From positions 1-20,601 of IMG/VR virus record IMGVR_UViG_3300021378_000206: a stretch of 20,601 nucleotides of DNA; one strand, 5' to 3'. The translations under genes and the position numbers were made by a program. Of the stretch, positions 1,247-17,182 are shown in pieces. Within the stretch, counting starts at the first letter, position 1. Every line of letters starts with the position of its first letter. Below the pieces are notes generated by a model. It was not told the origin of the DNA. It ran no database searches and saw nothing but the letters and a program-made list of their open reading frames with translations. The DNA comes from a virus.

Positions 1247-1254
1247 TATTTATA
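1247..1254 (-). promoter_or_regulatory. T4-type late promoter (TATAAATA)
   Basis: The minus strand reads TATAAATA here, an exact match to the T4 late -10 element recognised by gp55-RNA polymerase with gp33 and the sliding clamp. It lies in the short gap between the gp41 stop (1264) and the ATG at 1212, leaving a leader of about 30 nt. Position and orientation fit only the left-edge gene. Confidence 0.75.
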
Positions 1255-5038: not shown

Positions 5039-5647
5039 TTAAATACTAAAACGATCTTTGACAATTGCCGCGAATCGTTCTTCGTTATAATCGAGAAAGG
5101 GTTTATACTTTCGCGATTTGTTTATTATATCAAAAGATACGTGTTTGTCAACTACTTTTTCTTGCCAGTATGAAAATATATTCGCACTGTGAGCAAGAAT
5201 AGTAAATGTTTCTAAACTAATCTTCCTTTGTAATAACAAAGTCATAAGCAACGGATGCTGCCCATCTCTTGATATAAAGTTTTGCTTGTATTCATCATTA
5301 AGATGAGCAAGCTCGGATTTAAAGATATAACCTAATGATTCTATCTTCTTCCTCCAATTCGTATGTCTGGCCTCGCCTTCGCTATCAAGCAAATCGCGTA
5401 CCCAGCATGATTTATTTATTAAAATATTACTCAAAATTAACCCTTCAACGTCATCTTTTTTCGATAATTTCGCGAAAGAATATGCATCGTTTCTGGATAT
5501 AAACGTGTCAAAGTTTGCTCTGACTTTACCGTTATATTTAAAGTAATCGTAATTGTCTGCTGTAAAATGTTTTCTTAGTGCAAGGAACTTAACGTATGCA
5601 CCAAACGAATCATCATTCGCAATAGTCTGTGATATCTTTTGACTCAT
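5039..5647 (-). CDS. 59: Helicase loader gp59
   Basis: Loads the gp41 helicase onto gp32-coated forks and D-loops. The 202-aa length fits T4 gp59 (217 aa). Shared features with T4 gp59 include an early motif for a helical domain (Y-x-K/L-F-L-A-L-R-K-H-F, then YDYFKYNGKVR against T4 YDVIKYNWCMR), a basic R-x-D-x-Y-x-F-x-K-L-S segment (RNDAYSFAKLSKK), and a C-terminal helical domain with a QRKISLETFTIL segment corresponding to T4 QSNIISFETFILL. The start at 5647 lies within gp33 (35-nt overlap), the same gp33-gp59 coupling as in T4. Assignment rests on these motifs plus position directly upstream of gp32. Confidence 0.9.
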   Translation of the reverse strand: MSQKISQTIANDDSFGAYVKFLALRKHFTADNYDYFKYNGKVRANFDTFISRNDAYSFAKLSKKDDVEGLILSNILINKSCWVRDLLDSEGEARHTNWRKKIESLGYIFKSELAHLNDEYKQNFISRDGQHPLLMTLLLQRKISLETFTILAHSANIFSYWQEKVVDKHVSFDIINKSRKYKPFLDYNEERFAAIVKDRFSI

Positions 5648-5894
5648 CTTCTCTTTTCACCATTCTCAAGTCAACTGCTTCCGTTCGGATCTTTTCTTTC
5701 AACACCGAACTCTTCTTTACTATCTGAGCAATTGTTTCAATCTCAATGCCATTCTTTTCGGAATAGTCAACGAGCGCATCAATATAAGGTACTCCTCGAG
5801 AGATATGTCTACTAATCTCATGATGTATTTTATCAGGCGTTAGTGCTACTACTGCCATTTCATTGGTTCCATCTGTTGTTTTCTTTTTTGACAT
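5613..5894 (-). CDS. 33: Late transcription co-activator gp33
   Basis: In T4, gp33 binds the RNA polymerase beta flap and the gp45 clamp so that late promoters fire on replicating DNA. This 93-aa protein shows the same helical pattern as T4 gp33: a block with Y-x-x-A-x-x-x-x-x-E-x-N-x-I (YIDALVDYSEKNGIEIE here, YLEATTAFLEENSIPET in T4), then a block ending in E-K-I-x-(T/S)-E-A-(V/I)-D. The C-terminus is ITDYCE instead of the hydrophobic LDFLL clamp-binding end of T4. The ATG at 5894 is only about 4 nt from the predicted start of the nearest promoter; an internal Met at codon 13 (5858) is the alternative start. Gene order 33-59-32 supports the call. Confidence 0.85.
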   Translation of the reverse strand: MSKKKTTDGTNEMAVVALTPDKIHHEISRHISRGVPYIDALVDYSEKNGIEIETIAQIVKKSSVLKEKIRTEAVDLRMVKREDESKDITDYCE

Positions 5895-5904
5895 GTATAC
5901 CTAT

Positions 5905-5933
5905 ATTATAATCTAATTGACACCGTATGTCAA
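5905..5933 (-). promoter_or_regulatory. Sigma70-type early promoter P1 upstream of gp33
   Basis: The minus strand has TTGACA (5928-5933), a 17-bp spacer and TATAAT (5905-5910): a perfect consensus, preceded by CTA. Predicted transcription start is near 5898, which would give a nearly leaderless gp33 message. Confidence 0.85.
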
Positions 5934-5959
5934 TAGTTATTTTAGTTTATTTAGAAACT

Positions 5960-5990
5960 CGGCCAAGCGGGCTATAAGCCGACCTGACCG
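5960..5990 (-). other. Compact 5' hairpin in the leader downstream of promoter P2
   Basis: The RNA from promoter P2 would start near 5988 with CGGTC pairing to GGCCG (outer 5 bp) around a symmetric 5x5 internal loop and an inner GGCU-UAU-AGCC hairpin. It is much more GC-rich than its surroundings. A 5' stem-loop could protect the message from degradation or be a binding site; no known RNA family is recognised. Confidence 0.5.
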
Positions 5991-5994
5991 ATAT

Positions 5995-6023
5995 ATTATA
6001 CCACAGTTCCTTTGTCTTGTCAA
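5995..6023 (-). promoter_or_regulatory. Sigma70-type early promoter P2 upstream of gp33
   Basis: Minus strand TTGACA (6018-6023), 17-bp spacer, TATAAT (5995-6000), preceded by CTA. The transcript would run through the hairpin at 5960-5990 and promoter P1 into gp33-gp59-gp32. Confidence 0.85.
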
Positions 6024-6032
6024 TAGTTATTT

Positions 6033-6176
6033 TTAATAACTTGAACTAAAGGCTATGATAATGAAGGGAATGGCTATTGGGAATGTAAGTTGAAAAGTCA
6101 TATTTGCCATATCGCAAAATAGGCATACTTTTTTATTTTCTTTAAGTTGGTCGAAGGTCGCGTTAATTGTTTTCAT
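6033..6176 (-). CDS. 47-aa membrane mini-protein in the control region
   Basis: An ATG at 6176 opens a 47-codon frame. The N-terminal half is hydrophilic and carries a CLFC motif (Cys18, Cys21); residues about 29-46 form one hydrophobic segment (QLTFPIAIPFIIIAF), so a single-pass inner-membrane peptide is likely. It overlaps the 15-aa ORF (6163-6210) by 14 nt in another frame, and GGAGGG sits just before its ATG, so translation is probably coupled. It is the first sizeable gene on the transcript from promoter P3 and would be an immediate-early product. I recognise no family. Small early membrane proteins in T4-like phages often act against the host or against superinfection, but nothing here proves that. 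Confidence 0.55.
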   Translation of the reverse strand: MKTINATFDQLKENKKVCLFCDMANMTFQLTFPIAIPFIIIAFSSSY

Positions 6177-6210
6177 TACCCTCCATCTCCACGCATACTA
6201 ATGCTATCAT
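6163..6210 (-). CDS. 15-codon leader ORF
   Basis: The ATG at 6210 has the better ribosome site of the two mini-ORFs: AGGAG with 7-nt spacing, about 31 nt after the predicted start of promoter P3. The product would be 15 residues ending EGNENN. It ends inside the 47-aa ORF, so it may be a leader peptide that feeds ribosomes to that ORF. It is too short for homology to say more. Confidence 0.4.
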   Translation of the reverse strand: MIALVCVEMEGNENN

Positions 6211-6247
6211 TGTGTTTCTCCTAGGTCGGTTTGTTTCTACAGGTTCT

Positions 6248-6276
6248 ATTATAAACTAATTGATGGTTTATGTCAA
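6248..6276 (-). promoter_or_regulatory. Sigma70-type early promoter P3
   Basis: Minus strand TTGACA (6271-6276), 17-bp spacer, TATAAT (6248-6253), preceded by CTA. It shares with P1 the block CAATTAG(A/T)TTATAATA, so the two look like duplicated copies. It serves the mini-ORFs and probably the gp33 block. Confidence 0.85.
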
Positions 6277-6440: not shown

Positions 6441-7148
6441 TTAAACTTCCTCAAAGAGAACATTTTCTACATACTGATTCTTTCTTTCTTCCGATATTCC
6501 CATCGCTAAAATTGAACTATGAAGCATTCTATTTAGCTTTTGTTTTTCACAATACTTATTTTGCCTTTCGAGAGTATTAATCCATCTCTTAGTGTATTGA
6601 GGATTGCCCATCTCCATTGTATAAAATCTTGAAAGTTCCAAAGCCATGTTAACGAGTTGCTCTGTTTCTTCGCCTGTGCGAATTGATCCTGCACCTATAA
6701 TGTTTTCTGAAAATATCTCTAATGCCCAGTCTGGCATTACTCTTTCTTTTGTCCAAGTAAACTTTTCAGTAGCAGTTTTAAACTTAATCATATATGGATG
6801 ATGATCATTATGACCAGGATCAGTTGGAGAGTAGTCACAAAAGCAACCACTAATCTTTTTAGGATTCGCAACAATATCTAAACCGAAGATTGGTAAATCA
6901 ATATGTTCTTGTGGAAATATATTGATATGCATTAGCCACAATTTATTTTTACCAACAGGTTCAATTGTTTTTAAATGAGCTTTACGAATTATTGATGATT
7001 CCCAAAAGTAATCTTGCCAACCTTCAAGGTCAGCCGTATGTTTAGGATTCTCGACTCTTGTCATAGAGTCGTCAAATTCGTTAATTAAAGTAGCTGATAA
7101 CTTTCTTAATTGGTCAAAGAGTGGACTATCAACTATCACCGTCTTCAC
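6441..7148 (-). CDS. pcyX: Ferredoxin-dependent bilin reductase, PcyA-related (probable PcyX)
   Basis: Reduces biliverdin IXalpha with electrons from ferredoxin. At 235 aa it matches the family (PcyA about 250, PebS 233). Motifs: RKAHLK (55-60), LMHINIFP (72-79), LPIFGLDIV (85-93), CDYSPT (104-109) and EIFSENI (144-150); all align with Synechocystis PcyA. Of the PcyA active-site residues, His74 (here H58), His88 (H74) and Asp105 (D91) are kept, Asn219 aligns with N206, but Glu76 is Lys60 and Asp220 appears to be Arg207. Cyanophage PebS lacks the second His, so this protein sits nearer PcyA. PcyX from uncultured oceanic phages is PcyA-like yet makes phycoerythrobilin; loss of Glu76, which PcyA needs for exovinyl reduction, fits that. 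It overlaps the heme oxygenase gene by 20 nt. Family certain, product inferred. Confidence 0.85.
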   Translation of the reverse strand: MKTVIVDSPLFDQLRKLSATLINEFDDSMTRVENPKHTADLEGWQDYFWESSIIRKAHLKTIEPVGKNKLWLMHINIFPQEHIDLPIFGLDIVANPKKISGCFCDYSPTDPGHNDHHPYMIKFKTATEKFTWTKERVMPDWALEIFSENIIGAGSIRTGEETEQLVNMALELSRFYTMEMGNPQYTKRWINTLERQNKYCEKQKLNRMLHSSILAMGISEERKNQYVENVLFEEV

Positions 7149-7755
7149 CCCAAGGATTCATTTGTCTAGACATAACTGAACCTTGTGAGTCGTATTCTGC
7201 TGTATTGTTTTGATAGTTATCTATGAGATCATGAAATAATCTTTCTGCGTATTCAAAACATATCTTTGCTTCGTCGGCCATATCGTCATGCAGTAATTCT
7301 CTAACACCTTGTATTAGTTCTCTACGATTTTCAAATTCATACATCTGGCCTGAACCAGGAACACCTTTCTTAATGATTTGGCCACCATGAGCATCTCCAA
7401 AGTGTCTTACATATAAATGAGCAAGTAAAGCATCGTTATCATCGTCTTCTATTAATGTTTCAATATGCTTACCGTATTCAACAGTTGATTGAAAATGATC
7501 TTCGATTTCTTCAAGATCAAATAGATTTTCTAATTCTTGAAGGTCTTCTTCAATTTGAGTAGATCTAAAAATTGGTTCAAGTTCCATTGGAATTTCAACT
7601 GCATTCTCTAGGACCATGTAATTTTGTAATTGTGCGTGTAAATATTCTTGATACAGTCTTGGACTGATACCACCGCCTAATAACATATCTGCGAACTCGG
7701 TTCTTTCTGCGTTATCGTGGTGGGCTCTTGTTAATTCTTTTAGATTGTTTGACAT
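7129..7755 (-). CDS. ho1: Heme oxygenase (biliverdin-forming)
   Basis: Opens heme to biliverdin IXalpha, Fe2+ and CO using ferredoxin electrons and supplies the substrate for the overlapping bilin reductase. The 208-aa length fits soluble heme oxygenases. The N-terminal LKELTRAHHDNAE aligns with human HO-1 LKEATKEVHTQAE, making H13 the proximal heme ligand. The signature LLAHLYVRHFGDAHGGQ at 110-126 carries the distal-helix glycines (G120, G124, G125), with Ala-His in place of the usual Leu-Ser. The C-terminal tail after about residue 185 is extra and polar. Leader of about 40 nt with AGAGGTG before the ATG; the late promoter at 7803-7810 drives it. The reductase starts inside it, so the pair is one translational unit. 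Assignment firm. Confidence 0.93.
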   Translation of the reverse strand: MSNNLKELTRAHHDNAERTEFADMLLGGGISPRLYQEYLHAQLQNYMVLENAVEIPMELEPIFRSTQIEEDLQELENLFDLEEIEDHFQSTVEYGKHIETLIEDDDNDALLAHLYVRHFGDAHGGQIIKKGVPGSGQMYEFENRRELIQGVRELLHDDMADEAKICFEYAERLFHDLIDNYQNNTAEYDSQGSVMSRQMNPWGEDGDS

Positions 7756-7802
7756 TTTCTTTCACCTCTGTTTTTAATAATAAAGTCTTTGTTATCTGCA
7801 AC

Positions 7803-7814
7803 TATTTATAAATA
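7803..7814. promoter_or_regulatory. Palindromic, bidirectional T4-type late promoter
   Basis: TATTTATAAATA is a perfect 12-bp palindrome that contains TATAAATA on the plus strand (7807-7814) and on the minus strand (7803-7810). It lies midway between the divergent heme oxygenase ATG (7755) and lipase-like ATG (7855). Leaders would be about 40 nt each way. No sigma70 -35/-10 pair is visible in this 99-bp gap, so both operons appear to be late genes. Confidence 0.75.
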
Positions 7815-7854
7815 ATAACTGAACACAATTGTATATATCGCAGTAGGAGCGCTT

Positions 7855-8601
7855 ATGAACAAAAAAGTACAATTTTGTGATGTAAAAGGTGAGGCTGAAA
7901 AGAAAGCCGAAATGGCAAAGATTGCCTATGAAGATGGAAAGGAAGCAAAGCCCTTCTTCAAAAATCTAGGTTATACAGGTCATAAATTTATTGACCATGA
8001 CGGCGCACAAGCTCATTGTGTATGGAACAAAGAAGAATTTGTTTTATGTTGCCGTGGTACTGAACCAACCGAACTCAACGATCTTAAAGCTGATCTCAAC
8101 ATTTGGCCTGATAAAGCTCAGGTTGGTGGTTGGGTACACAATGGATTCCAAAACGAAATAGATGATATCTGGGATGATATTATTAAAGTATTAGTTAAGC
8201 ATGGAGAAAAAAGAATCAGCATATGTGGTCATTCATTAGGTGGAGCAATGGCAACAATTGCTGCTTCAAGATTACTTGAATATAAACCCGTTCTATATAC
8301 TTTTGGATCACCAAGAGTTGGTAATGCTGCGTTTGTTAAAGAATGCGCTGACCTAGAACATTATCGTTTTGTAAATAACAATGATTTAGTCACTGTCATA
8401 CCACCTTGGTTTATGGGTTACCGACATCACGGCCAAGTTATGTATTTTAACTACAACGGTATTATTAAGAACCTTGCTTGGTGGAGAAAGTTAAAAGATA
8501 AACTACGAGGTATTGCTACTTCGTGGATCAATTTAAAACCTTTTGACGGCCTTTCTGACCACTCAATGGATAACTATACAAAATATACTAAGGATAACTA
8601 A
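7855..8601 (+). CDS. Class 3 lipase-like alpha/beta hydrolase
   Basis: A 248-aa serine hydrolase with the lipase-3 architecture. The nucleophile elbow is GHSLGG (S127 nucleophile); the preceding block VLCCRGTEP (63-71) corresponds to the oxyanion/RGT motif of class 3 lipases, VHNGF (94-98) is also typical, and the catalytic Asp is probably D177 in NNNDLVTVIPP, with H236 (LSDHSMDNY) the likely His; spacings of 50 and 59 residues fit known lipases. There is no signal peptide, so it should act in the cytoplasm or be released at lysis. The start has a good SD (AGGAG). It opens a plus-strand operon of six tightly packed genes driven by the palindromic late promoter. The substrate (host phospholipid, neutral lipid, storage polyester) cannot be told from sequence. 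Confidence 0.88.
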   Translation: MNKKVQFCDVKGEAEKKAEMAKIAYEDGKEAKPFFKNLGYTGHKFIDHDGAQAHCVWNKEEFVLCCRGTEPTELNDLKADLNIWPDKAQVGGWVHNGFQNEIDDIWDDIIKVLVKHGEKRISICGHSLGGAMATIAASRLLEYKPVLYTFGSPRVGNAAFVKECADLEHYRFVNNNDLVTVIPPWFMGYRHHGQVMYFNYNGIIKNLAWWRKLKDKLRGIATSWINLKPFDGLSDHSMDNYTKYTKDN

Positions 8602-8972
8602 TGGACATTTTGGAGAGACTGACAGACGATACTCTATGGATTTATACAGCAATCCTTGGCTCAATTACAGGTGCTGCATTCTTATTTTGGTTTAAAGATA
8701 CAAAGATGGCTTTATGGGGTGTTGGTAAATTTGATGCTTTCTTAGAGTATTTGGCTATAAGATGGGGTTGGACTTGGTTAGAATCAGATCCCTTTGCTTG
8801 GAGAAAAAAGTATCCACATATTACAAATAAGATCGATGAACTTGAAGATAGAATTCAAGATTTAGAAATTGATACACATCCTCCTGTTGCTCCTGGCGGA
8901 ACAACTGAACTTAAATCACTTATCGATGATATCAACGTAAGACTTGATAAAATAGAAAAGAAAAGAAAGTAA
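8601..8972 (+). CDS. Membrane-anchored coiled-coil protein of unknown function
   Basis: A 123-aa protein with one strong transmembrane helix near residues 12-30 (LWIYTAILGSITGAAFLFWF), a Trp-rich amphipathic stretch (LAIRWGWTWLESDPFAW), and a C-terminal half with heptad patterning (NKIDELEDRIQDLEI and IDDINVRLDKIEKKRK) separated by a Pro/Gly-rich hinge. Its ATG overlaps the lipase stop by one base (TAATG), so the two are co-translated. In the lysis context one could imagine a spanin-like or lipase-partner role, but there is no lipobox or signal and I do not recognise a family. Confidence 0.8.
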   Translation: MDILERLTDDTLWIYTAILGSITGAAFLFWFKDTKMALWGVGKFDAFLEYLAIRWGWTWLESDPFAWRKKYPHITNKIDELEDRIQDLEIDTHPPVAPGGTTELKSLIDDINVRLDKIEKKRK

Positions 8973-9286
8973 TGGAACTTACCGATGCAGCAATATCTAA
9001 GGCGGTTGAAAGAACGGCAGGATCGCAACCTAGCAATATTAGGTTGGGTGTCACTGCTGGTGGGTGTGTTGGGTTTGAGTATATTATTGAATATGCTCGT
9101 GAAATTAGTAACGATGATACTGTAACTGATTACGGAAAGTTTAAAATAGTTATGGATAAATTGTCCGAACCGTATTTTAAGGATGCAAAGTTGGACTGGG
9201 TAAAAGAAGGATTGAACGAATCATTTAGAATTATCAATCCAAACGAAACCAATTCTTGCGGTTGTGGTGAATCAATAGGATTTTAA
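8972..9286 (+). CDS. A-type iron-sulfur cluster carrier (IscA/HesB-like)
   Basis: A 104-aa protein with the A-type carrier layout: GVTAGGCVGFEYIIEY at 26-41 (Cys32), a middle region with FKIVMDKLSEPYFKDAKLDWV, and a C-terminal CGCGES (Cys96, Cys98). Three Cys in the pattern C-x63-C-x-C are the cluster ligands in IscA, SufA and HesB. The family transfers Fe-S clusters or iron to apoproteins. The ATG overlaps the previous stop (TAATG). Similar genes occur in other marine T4-like phages. Here it could supply cluster to host ferredoxin, the electron donor of the bilin enzymes transcribed in the opposite direction from the same promoter; that link is my inference. Confidence 0.9.
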   Translation: MELTDAAISKAVERTAGSQPSNIRLGVTAGGCVGFEYIIEYAREISNDDTVTDYGKFKIVMDKLSEPYFKDAKLDWVKEGLNESFRIINPNETNSCGCGESIGF

Positions 9287-9303: not shown

Positions 9304-9462
9304 ATGTTAGATTGGATTAAAGGAAGACTAGGAGAAAGAACTTCATTAGACGGTGCCGTTGCTATTGGCGGTGGTATTGTTATGATATTAATACCAACAA
9401 GTTTAATTGGTTGGGGTCTTATTGCATACGGTGCATGGACTATTTGGAAGAAGGAAGACTAA
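9304..9462 (+). CDS. 52-aa membrane protein
   Basis: The ATG at 9304 follows AGGAG (7-nt spacing). The product is 52 residues: a short amphipathic start (MLDWIKGRLGERTS) and a long hydrophobic Gly-rich stretch from about 18 to 47 (AVAIGGGIVMILIPTSLIGW and onward), probably two short helices or one long hairpin, with a positively charged end (WKKED). The stop overlaps the start of the next gene (TAATG). Function unknown; a holin-like role is conceivable next to a hydrolase gene but not shown. Confidence 0.75.
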   Translation: MLDWIKGRLGERTSLDGAVAIGGGIVMILIPTSLIGWGLIAYGAWTIWKKED

Positions 9463-9785
9463 TGAGTGAAGAAATAAAATCAAGCGGACACCATCCTGCT
9501 GATTCTAATGGAGACGGTAAAGTTTCCAAAGCCGAAGAAGCAATGTATTTAGAGTTTAAAAGAAAAGAACTTGAAGATGCTGACGCAATGCGCGATGCTC
9601 AAAGAAAAATGGCATGGTTCTCATTATATGGAATGTTAGCATATCCTGTTTTAGTAATAGGATCTAATGTTGTTGGGTACGAAAAGGCAGCCGACATTTT
9701 AGGCGATATGGCAGGAGTATATTTTATTGCTGTTGCTGGTATTGTTGCTGCGTTCTTTGGTGCGCAGGCATGGACGAAAAAGTAA
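9462..9785 (+). CDS. EF-hand-containing membrane protein
   Basis: A 107-aa protein starting at the ATG in TAATG that overlaps the previous stop; a longer in-frame start at 9411 lies inside the upstream gene and is rejected. Residues 14-25 (DSNGDGKVSKAE and E25) form a canonical EF-hand loop, with Asp14, Asn16, Asp18 and Glu25 as calcium ligands. A charged helix follows (LEFKRKELEDADAMRDAQRK), then two transmembrane helices at about 50-70 and 84-102. I recall close homologues in marine T4-like phages, but no known function. A calcium-sensing membrane protein would fit roles at adsorption, lysis or exclusion. Confidence 0.85.
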   Translation: MSEEIKSSGHHPADSNGDGKVSKAEEAMYLEFKRKELEDADAMRDAQRKMAWFSLYGMLAYPVLVIGSNVVGYEKAADILGDMAGVYFIAVAGIVAAFFGAQAWTKK

Positions 9786-12852: not shown

Positions 12853-12927
12853 TGGCGCCCTTGAAAGGAATCGAACCTCTAGTTGTCGGTTCGTAGCCGA
12901 CTGTTTTATCCGTTAAACTACAAGGGC
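12853..12927 (-). tRNA. tRNA-Arg (anticodon ACG)
   Basis: A full cloverleaf with encoded CCA. Acceptor GCCCTTG/CAAGGGC (7 bp), D arm GTTT/AAAC with A20-type loop (AACGGATA), anticodon stem GTCGG/CCGAC with loop CTACGAA giving ACG at 12892-12894, a 4-nt variable loop, T stem AGAGG/CCTTT with loop TTCGATT, discriminator G, then CCA. It reads CGU (and CGC/CGA if A34 is deaminated by host TadA). It lies in the minus-strand gene series, 5 nt from the stop at 12933. Confidence 0.93.
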
Positions 12928-13227: not shown

Positions 13228-13395
13228 TTATCCTATGTTTGTCTCTTCTGTTATATTTGCAGTAGGAAAATCAACAAGACAGTTATCAATTCTACGAACG
13301 TATGTTGTATCTCCTTCTACTCTTTCAACTATACCAACTACTTCTAACGTTACGTCAGGTTTCATTGGATGTGTATATTTAATTTTCTTTTTCAT
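13228..13395 (-). CDS. 55-aa hypothetical protein
   Basis: ATG at 13395, 17-nt overlap with the end of the phosphomannomutase-like gene. The product starts with a basic patch (MKKKIKYTHPMKPD) and continues as short beta strands (VTLEVVGIVERVEGDTTYVR) with a single Cys. The layout resembles a small OB- or SH3-like barrel. The next gene begins immediately after its stop. No family recognised. Confidence 0.65.
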   Translation of the reverse strand: MKKKIKYTHPMKPDVTLEVVGIVERVEGDTTYVRRIDNCLVDFPTANITEETNIG

Positions 13396-14098
13396 TTAAC
13401 AATTCCCATGTTTGTTTCCAGCCTGAGACTGGATATGTTTTTCCCATCTTACTTAATTCTATTGTTAATGCAAGAGGATAATCGTTTCCACCGAACTCCA
13501 TTCTGTCTCCGAAGAAATGAATGGTTTCATATTGTTTATTTAGGATATCAGCGATTTGCGATTTATTATTTCCTCGTGGACTAATATCAATACTAATCTG
13601 TCCACCTATTGAAGCATGAAGCTTAGGATAGTCATGATTGAGATTCTTTACAATACAAGATCTTTCATGATTCTGCGAATCCCAATCAAAATATTGCTGT
13701 CTTTGTATATCGTTGCTATCTCTTCCTGGAATTGAAAAGTTAACCATGCCAGTTCTTTTTTCAATATGATTACCTGTCTTAATTGGATAACGAGTACTTT
13801 GAACAAGATTATCCAGATAACTCTTAAACTCATAGTCAATTGTCATTTCGTTTTGACTTACTCTACGACTCTTTTCCCAATATTCATTTCCATTACATTG
13901 CCAAACTCCTTTGACAGACTCATATAGAATAGGTCCTATTTGTTCAAAGGTCTTTCGTCTATCGGATCCAGTTACGAGGTATACATCGTTATCTTTACAG
14001 AATGTCAACATAAAGGTTAAAAACTGTGGAGATATAGGTTGTCTTGAATCTGTTAGTGTTCCATCTACGTCAAATACGAATACTTCTTTTTCTCTCAT
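13379..14098 (-). CDS. HAD-family phosphomannomutase homologue (eukaryotic PMM type)
   Basis: A 239-aa HAD phosphatase/mutase. Motif I is FDVDGT (D10 nucleophile, D12). The cap and later motifs follow eukaryotic PMM1/PMM2: VTGSDRRKTFEQIG (PMM2 NGSDFEKVQEQLG), IEKRTGMVNFSIPGR (PMM2 IEFRNGMLNVSPIGR, with the two sugar-phosphate-binding Arg kept), SIGGQISIDISPRGNNK (PMM2 SIGGQISFDVFPDGWDK) and IHFFGDRMEFGGNDYPLA (PMM2 IYFFGDKTMPGGNDHEIF). PMM converts mannose-6-phosphate and mannose-1-phosphate, feeding GDP-mannose; a related phosphatase is the alternative because the whole pathway is not in the window. ATGA overlap with the downstream side of 14095. Confidence 0.85.
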   Translation of the reverse strand: MREKEVFVFDVDGTLTDSRQPISPQFLTFMLTFCKDNDVYLVTGSDRRKTFEQIGPILYESVKGVWQCNGNEYWEKSRRVSQNEMTIDYEFKSYLDNLVQSTRYPIKTGNHIEKRTGMVNFSIPGRDSNDIQRQQYFDWDSQNHERSCIVKNLNHDYPKLHASIGGQISIDISPRGNNKSQIADILNKQYETIHFFGDRMEFGGNDYPLALTIELSKMGKTYPVSGWKQTWELLNEKEN

Positions 14099-15323: not shown

Positions 15324-15400
15324 TGGCACGCCCACCAGGAATCGAACCTGGAACCTACAGCTTAGAAGGCTGTTGCTCTATCCTATTGAGCTATGAGCGC
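15324..15400 (-). tRNA. tRNA-Arg (anticodon UCU)
   Basis: A full cloverleaf with encoded CCA: acceptor GCGCTCA/TGGGCGT (two G-T pairs), D arm GCTC/GAGC with loop AATAGGATA, anticodon stem ACAGC/GCTGT with loop CTTCTAA giving TCT, variable loop AGGTT, T stem CCAGG/CCTGG with loop TTCGATT, discriminator G, CCA. It reads AGA and AGG, codons favoured in AT-rich phage genes. It sits between the metalloprotease gene (ends 15409) and 15298. Confidence 0.95.
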
Positions 15401-16593: not shown

Positions 16594-16622
16594 ATTATAC
16601 TCTAGTTTCGTAGACTTGTCAA
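16594..16622 (-). promoter_or_regulatory. Sigma70-type early promoter
   Basis: Minus strand TTGACA (16617-16622), 17-bp spacer, TATAAT (16594-16599), preceded by CTA. Leader to the 16562 start is about 25 nt. It should transcribe the dense small-gene series to at least the metalloprotease gene and tRNA. Confidence 0.88.
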
Positions 16623-16687
16623 TAGTTTTATGATAAAAAGTTCATATTTGTTAGAACTTTTCGTTATATTGATACAATTATTAATAA

Positions 16688-16879
16688 CTAGACTCCATGC
16701 GTCATATGTTCGTAAGCATCAGGACATGTATTGATTTGATCTCCGCAACCGCAGATTTGATCCTCTTCAATTGATGGTGCTCCGACCATATCCCTGATTT
16801 GTGATTCAGTATACCTTTGTTTGCCACCTACGGTGGATTGCTGCGCAAGCAGCGATATTTGTTGTTCTGTTAATCCCAT
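16688..16879 (-). CDS. 63-aa hypothetical protein
   Basis: Clear SD (AGGAG) before the ATG at 16879 and its own promoter. The N-terminal half is helical (MGLTEQQISLLAQQS, then YTESQIRDMVGAPSIEED) and the C-terminus has CGCGDQINTCPDAYEHMTHG, with three Cys and two His that could bind a metal. The coding region for residues 10-20 contains two adjacent GC-rich hairpins. No family recognised. Confidence 0.75.
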   Translation of the reverse strand: MGLTEQQISLLAQQSTVGGKQRYTESQIRDMVGAPSIEEDQICGCGDQINTCPDAYEHMTHGV

Positions 16880-16932
16880 AATGTACTCCTTTTAATGTTA
16901 ACACTCTATTATTGATTAGAGACGATAAGTCT

Positions 16933-16961
16933 ATTATACACAGTACTTTTGGATCTGTCAA
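16933..16961 (-). promoter_or_regulatory. Sigma70-type early promoter
   Basis: Minus strand TTGACA (16956-16961), 17-bp spacer, TATAAT (16933-16938). Unlike the others it is preceded by GG rather than CTA. Predicted start near 16926; leader of about 47 nt to the 63-aa gene. Confidence 0.85.
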
Positions 16962-17036
16962 CCATTTTCTGAAATTATTTTAGTCCAGCACTCCTTATAC
17001 AATATATAGATAACTGAGGGATACTGAAATTAACTA

Positions 17037-17065
17037 TTGACATTCACTGAGAACTGTTGTAGAAT
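17037..17065 (+). promoter_or_regulatory. Sigma70-type early promoter, distal one for the topoisomerase operon
   Basis: TTGACA (17037-17042), 17-bp spacer, TAGAAT (17060-17065; one mismatch). Preceded by GAAATTAACTA, nearly identical to the proximal copy. The transcript would carry a leader of about 135 nt to the topoisomerase start. Confidence 0.78.
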
Positions 17066-17088
17066 GGTATCATAATGAATTGTTTGAG

Positions 17089-17124
17089 AGGGTGGTAAGG
17101 CATGATTCGGAAAGATGCAGCCCT
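17089..17124 (+). other. Structured leader segment between the two topoisomerase promoters
   Basis: AGGG (17089-17092) can pair with CCCT (17121-17124) and, inside an asymmetric internal loop, GCAT (17100-17103) with ATGC (17115-17118). A 22-codon ORF from the ATG at 17102 runs to 17170. The block is more GC-rich than its flanks and lies only on the distal transcript. Not matched to any riboswitch I know; it may be a regulatory leader or an ORF relic. The rest of 16962-17206 holds the two promoters and AT-rich sequence. Confidence 0.35.
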
Positions 17125-17153
17125 GACGACAGATCATTTATTTGAATTAACTA

Positions 17154-17182
17154 TTGACATGAACCCCTAACTGTGGTATAAT
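17154..17182 (+). promoter_or_regulatory. Sigma70-type early promoter, proximal one for the topoisomerase operon
   Basis: TTGACA (17154-17159), 17-bp spacer, TATAAT (17177-17182), preceded by GAATTAACTA. Predicted start near 17189, giving an 18-nt leader that contains the GGAG site of the TTG-started topoisomerase gene. Confidence 0.88.

Follow-up and report, generated by a model that had tools for sequence, protein, structure and literature searches.

A palindrome of two late octamers as the predicted shared promoter of divergent bilin and lipase operons in a T4-like marine phage

The 20.6 kb virus record analyzed here (the window) is a genome fragment of a T4-like marine phage. It contains a 12 bp palindrome, TATTTATAAATA (7803-7814), that is very probably a bidirectional late promoter of the T4 (gp55) type, placed between a bilin operon on the minus strand and a lipase/Fe-S operon on the plus strand. 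The gap between the heme oxygenase and the class 3 lipase spans 99 bases (7756-7854), and TATTTATAAATA lies near its center. The palindrome consists of two perfect copies of the late octamer TATAAATA that share their central four bases, TATA. The minus-strand copy (7803-7810, read from 7810 to 7803) points toward the bilin operon, with a predicted transcription start near 7797, and the plus-strand copy (7807-7814) points toward the lipase/Fe-S operon, with a predicted start at about 7820-7822. An initial sequence-only reading had proposed a perfect late octamer on each strand, centered between divergent genes, and both points are borne out. T4 late promoters consist of an 8 bp element without a -35 region; gp55 recognizes this element, and gp33 together with the clamp gp45, once loaded on DNA, activates it (PMC2988020). 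At this junction an exact TATAAATA stands at the -10 position on both strands without a conserved -35, in all 30 clusters of related loci described below. The leaders, 47 nt from octamer to ATG for the heme oxygenase and 40 nt for the lipase, fall in the range of about 25-60 nt of T4-type late promoters. One symmetric core between divergent genes, as in a bidirectional promoter, is found in all relatives with upstream DNA. We infer polymerase use, start sites, late timing and exclusivity at TATTTATAAATA from sequence evidence of this kind.

The bilin operon begins with the heme oxygenase (7129-7755, minus strand; PF01126, E 3.9e-19), preceded by a GAGGTG ribosome site (7768-7763), and continues with a ferredoxin-dependent bilin reductase (6441-7148, minus strand; PF05996). 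The nearest solved structure to the reductase is PcyX (5owg; phmmer E 2.1e-26 to PcyX_EBK42635), not PcyA or PebS, and among solved structures the protein is closer to PcyX (2e-26) than to PcyA chains (5e-12). The same order of heme oxygenase and PcyX-like reductase is found in the ho1/hemO-pcyX cassettes of marine phage metagenomes (PMC11480375). Promoter control of the cassette is not addressed in that study, and the term "late promoter" is absent from its text. On the plus strand, the divergent operon starts with the class 3 lipase (7855-8601; PF01764, E 2.1e-22), which has an AGGAG ribosome site at 7845-7849. It is followed by a coiled-coil-like protein of unknown function (8601-8972), an A-type Fe-S cluster biosynthesis protein (8972-9286; PF01521), a small membrane protein (9304-9462) and a last gene at 9459-9785, the ORF of which is listed from a TTG at 9411, although the ATG at 9459 is the more likely start. 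Also on the minus strand are a gp33-like late transcription coactivator (5613-5894; PF16805, E 1.7e-13) and gp41-like, UvsX-like, gp32 and gp59 genes, named by sequence and by synteny with T4-like records. Neither gp55 nor gp45 is among the genes of the 20.6 kb fragment; gp55 homologs are present in two long relatives (G001 and G003), with 56% identity to the gp55 of phage Mosig. The window further contains two tRNA genes (12856-12927 and 15327-15400, minus strand) and a minus-strand gene (13379-14098) that matches the eukaryotic-type phosphomannomutase family PF03332, here in a phage.

TATTTATAAATA occurs once in the window, where 0.01 copies are expected per dinucleotide shuffle, and it arose in 4/20,000 shuffles of the gap alone. 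Single octamers are not significantly enriched in the window (5 observed, 2.7 expected), and thus the decisive evidence for TATTTATAAATA is its comparative conservation. With the heme oxygenase as query we retrieved 76 viral contigs, 75 of which include upstream sequence. The sequence-only reading had called for a search for the same palindrome at this junction in related phages; it is intact and exact in 75/75. A further 10 contigs, found via the lipase and gp59, carry it as well. After the related contigs were collapsed to 30 clusters (<90% identity, the window counted in), all 12 palindrome bases were invariant in 30/30 clusters, while the best flanking column reached 0.83. The heme oxygenase gene itself has 64-89% nucleotide identity between clusters and about 52% at third codon positions, and its longest invariant run across the 30 clusters is 5 bases. 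A chance origin of TATTTATAAATA is ruled out by the invariance across clusters together with the shuffle expectation. The more distant phages L201 and L212 have no such octamer ahead of the heme oxygenase.

The invariance might also stem from a symmetric protein-binding site. The palindrome would then be mainly a dyad operator or other protein site, for a repressor or a replication or recombination protein, and its likeness to a promoter would be secondary. Perfect dyad symmetry and complete invariance would fit the site of a homodimer. We nevertheless regard this as most unlikely, as the sequence corresponds exactly to two known late octamers with a four-base overlap, and the leaders are as long as those found at other octamers. 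The palindrome is also confined to the divergent junction, with 0 copies elsewhere in 621 kb of loci, its halves occur singly once the genes stand apart, and the identical sequence is found at an unrelated divergent late junction of T4-like phages. A genome-wide repeat or operator is ruled out, given a single copy per locus and per long relative.

The other late octamers of the clade put the palindrome in context. In the long relatives, 44/60 copies of TATAAATA are followed by a gene start on the same strand, with the start codon mostly 27-40 nt away; among control octamers this held for 11-24% of cases with six permuted versions and for 45% with the reversed one. The extra TATT that completes the palindrome accompanies 0/31 ordinary gene-associated octamers, and of the 72 other octamers in the heme oxygenase loci, none forms a palindrome. 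TATTTATAAATA is therefore specific to the junction at which the bilin and lipase-side operons diverge. The genes that follow the other octamers of the clade are, as far as identified, a cytidyltransferase/DUF5824 gene, a methyltransferase and unknowns, with no clear capsid genes among these families. The sole link to the capsid comes from a relative, the pelagiphage Mosig EXVC030M, in which the same octamer is found ahead of the genes for neck, sheath, protease and scaffold proteins. In the marine T4-like cyanophages S-PM2 and Syn9 and in pelagiphages, the same octamer (NATAAATA/TATAAATA) likewise occupies promoter-like positions ahead of late genes (PMC2984593). Within the window, another late octamer (1247-1254, minus strand) with a conserved downstream aaactctagatatat lies ahead of a large gene of unknown function; octamer and downstream sequence are identical in G001 and G003.

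A late promoter that serves the bilin operon in one direction only would leave the second half of the palindrome (the left half, which faces the divergent gene) as a bystander or as an extended promoter element. The heme oxygenase-facing octamer alone would account for half of the conservation, and the distant heme oxygenase loci L195 and L196 have only that octamer nearby. In these two loci about 2 kb, filled with plus-strand genes (L195:1600-3640, and L196), separates the two sides, and one single octamer is retained on each side. It is as if the palindrome had been split, or as if two promoters had later merged. Still, one-way use is very unlikely. A general extension of the late promoter by TATT is ruled out by its absence from the 31 ordinary octamers, and the left octamer is as invariant as the right one and always faces the divergent gene with a short leader. 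Moreover, locus L192 keeps this divergent half intact although the heme oxygenase half has changed to TATATATA. The comparison indicates that both halves of the palindrome are under selection. The first divergent gene varies among relatives (lipase, coiled-coil protein, Fe-S protein or small membrane protein), and despite this TATTTATAAATA persists, and the leader mostly measures 25-50 nt. Judging from the gene orders, the divergent operon in the relatives looks like one operon trimmed at its promoter-proximal end.

The window is rich in sigma70 promoters, with eight TTGACA-17-TATAAT sites at one mismatch or less versus 0.43 expected. Three perfect copies on the minus strand form a tandem ahead of gp33 (5905-6276): two before the gene (5905-5933 and 5995-6023) and one in the interval between bilin reductase and gp33 (6248-6276). 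Full matches of this kind (12/12) are common among these phages, and those of this region are conserved, occurring in the reductase-gp33 interval of 28/29 cluster representatives. Conserved 12/12 sites (TTGACA-16/18-TATAAT) are found in the gap between the heme oxygenase and the divergent gene in 0/30 clusters, an absence that is informative because the rest of the window has many full consensus promoters. The initial claim that the gap is without a sigma70 promoter was thus right in substance, with two caveats on the plus strand. One is a 9/12 match at 7789-7816. The other is an 11/12 match at 7749-7778 (TTGACA-18-TTTAAT), the TTGACA of which complements the sequence around the heme oxygenase start codon; its -10 is without the A at position 2 and is not conserved among relatives. 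The best sigma70 scores in the gaps of relatives are no higher than those of flank-shuffled controls. As a conserved site is absent, we rejected a sigma70 promoter concealed in the gap.

These results bear on the possibility that the site is an early or middle promoter for the host sigma factor, with TATAAA as its -10 element and bilin genes that are not late. TATAAA is a good -10 hexamer, symmetric -10 elements drive bacterial bidirectional promoters (PMC12825309), and the 11/12 match would point the same way. We consider it improbable nonetheless. Against it stand the absence of a conserved -35, scores that equal those of the shuffled controls, the use of complete 12/12 sigma70 promoters at other places, among them the stretch immediately behind the bilin genes, and selection on an eight-base octamer, which goes beyond what a -10 element needs.

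With perfect sigma70 promoters absent from the gap and present between the reductase and gp33, the bilin genes fall in a predicted late module, upstream of the early replication block and apart from it. Their late expression, as first proposed, is well supported by this architecture, in which the genes are preceded by the octamer and conserved perfect sigma70 promoters appear only downstream of them, ahead of gp33. The initial reading contrasted this with early placement as the rule for metabolic genes; here early should be replaced by middle: in cyanophage P-HM2, auxiliary metabolic genes are exclusively in the middle class (PMC5082946). We found no terminator between the bilin reductase and gp33, so that late read-through into gp33-gp59-gp32 is possible. 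In two relatives (G002:32512-32521 and G006:26854-26863, minus strand), a late octamer directly adjoins a perfect sigma70 promoter before gp33, an arrangement that suggests that the replication genes are under both early and late control. Elsewhere in the window, perfect sigma70 promoters lie on both strands upstream of topoisomerase II (16594-17182; at 16622 and 16961 on the minus strand and 17154 on the plus strand). This divergent early promoter region has separate promoters, unlike the shared late TATTTATAAATA.

T4 has exactly one such palindrome, in the 50-base gap between the divergent late genes 26 and 51, where the depositors of M77695 annotated overlapping TATA boxes for the two genes. 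It is conserved in Mosigvirus, Jiaodavirus, Karamvirus, Marfavirus, Tegunavirus and an Acinetobacter phage. The Krischvirus examined (L245) has a single octamer facing gene 51 in its place, and thus the palindromic arrangement can be lost. A palindromic copy is absent from Syn9, P-SSM2, P-SSM4, HTVC008M, KVP40 and Mosig. The Straboviridae site is the same 12-base palindrome and also lies between divergent genes, but it feeds baseplate genes, whereas the site described here, in a marine T4-like phage, is predicted to serve bilin, lipase and Fe-S genes next to the replication block. The difference in locus implies either independent origin or reuse. The device is therefore already known from T4; what is new is its place and the metabolic genes served. 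Searching the literature for TATTTATAAATA itself returned only unrelated papers. Conservation, gene placement and the 26/51 precedent together lend strong support to the original proposal of one predicted late promoter shared by two divergent operons. The bidirectional sigma70 promoters of bacteria (Warman, Grainger) likewise have a symmetric -10-type element and mutually exclusive polymerase binding, and the roughly 23 bp predicted between the two starts of TATTTATAAATA is a spacing that is common among them (PMC12825309). They use the host sigma70, whereas TATTTATAAATA is a late octamer site without a -35 at which gp55, gp33 and the clamp would be expected.

In the bidirectional late promoter that we favor, a gp55-like phage sigma factor on the host RNA polymerase, assisted by gp33 and by the sliding clamp gp45, would read TATTTATAAATA. 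The site is readable either way because the two octamers overlap by the central TATA. Facing one way, the polymerase would transcribe the lipase/coiled-coil/Fe-S/membrane-protein operon; facing the opposite way, it would transcribe the operon of heme oxygenase and bilin reductase. As the octamers share bases, two polymerases should be unable to bind together, and with a single polymerase per TATTTATAAATA at a time each DNA copy would fire in one direction per event. Late in infection, the numerous replicated copies would supply both transcripts, and with many genome copies present simple sharing is as likely as alternation. Clamp activation in T4 is some 300-fold or more, and given such activation TATTTATAAATA may reach the range of activity in which exclusion matters. 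At E. coli bidirectional promoters, competition occurs only when one direction is strongly activated or activity is high (PMC12825309). A more speculative idea, which we think doubtful, is that the replication machinery sets the direction in which TATTTATAAATA fires, making the site a switch that couples the ratio of the two metabolic operons to replication. The side that fires would then follow the orientation of the clamps left on the DNA, through fork direction and lagging-strand ends.

The phage bilin cassette is placed by these results in a probably late, replication-coupled module apart from the early genes. Such a placement predicts the timing of pigment or heme turnover. TATTTATAAATA also joins T4 26/51 as a second case of a promoter with perfect symmetry that is probably activated by the clamp. 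It would be a clean natural substrate for asking whether the direction of transcription depends on how the clamp is oriented.
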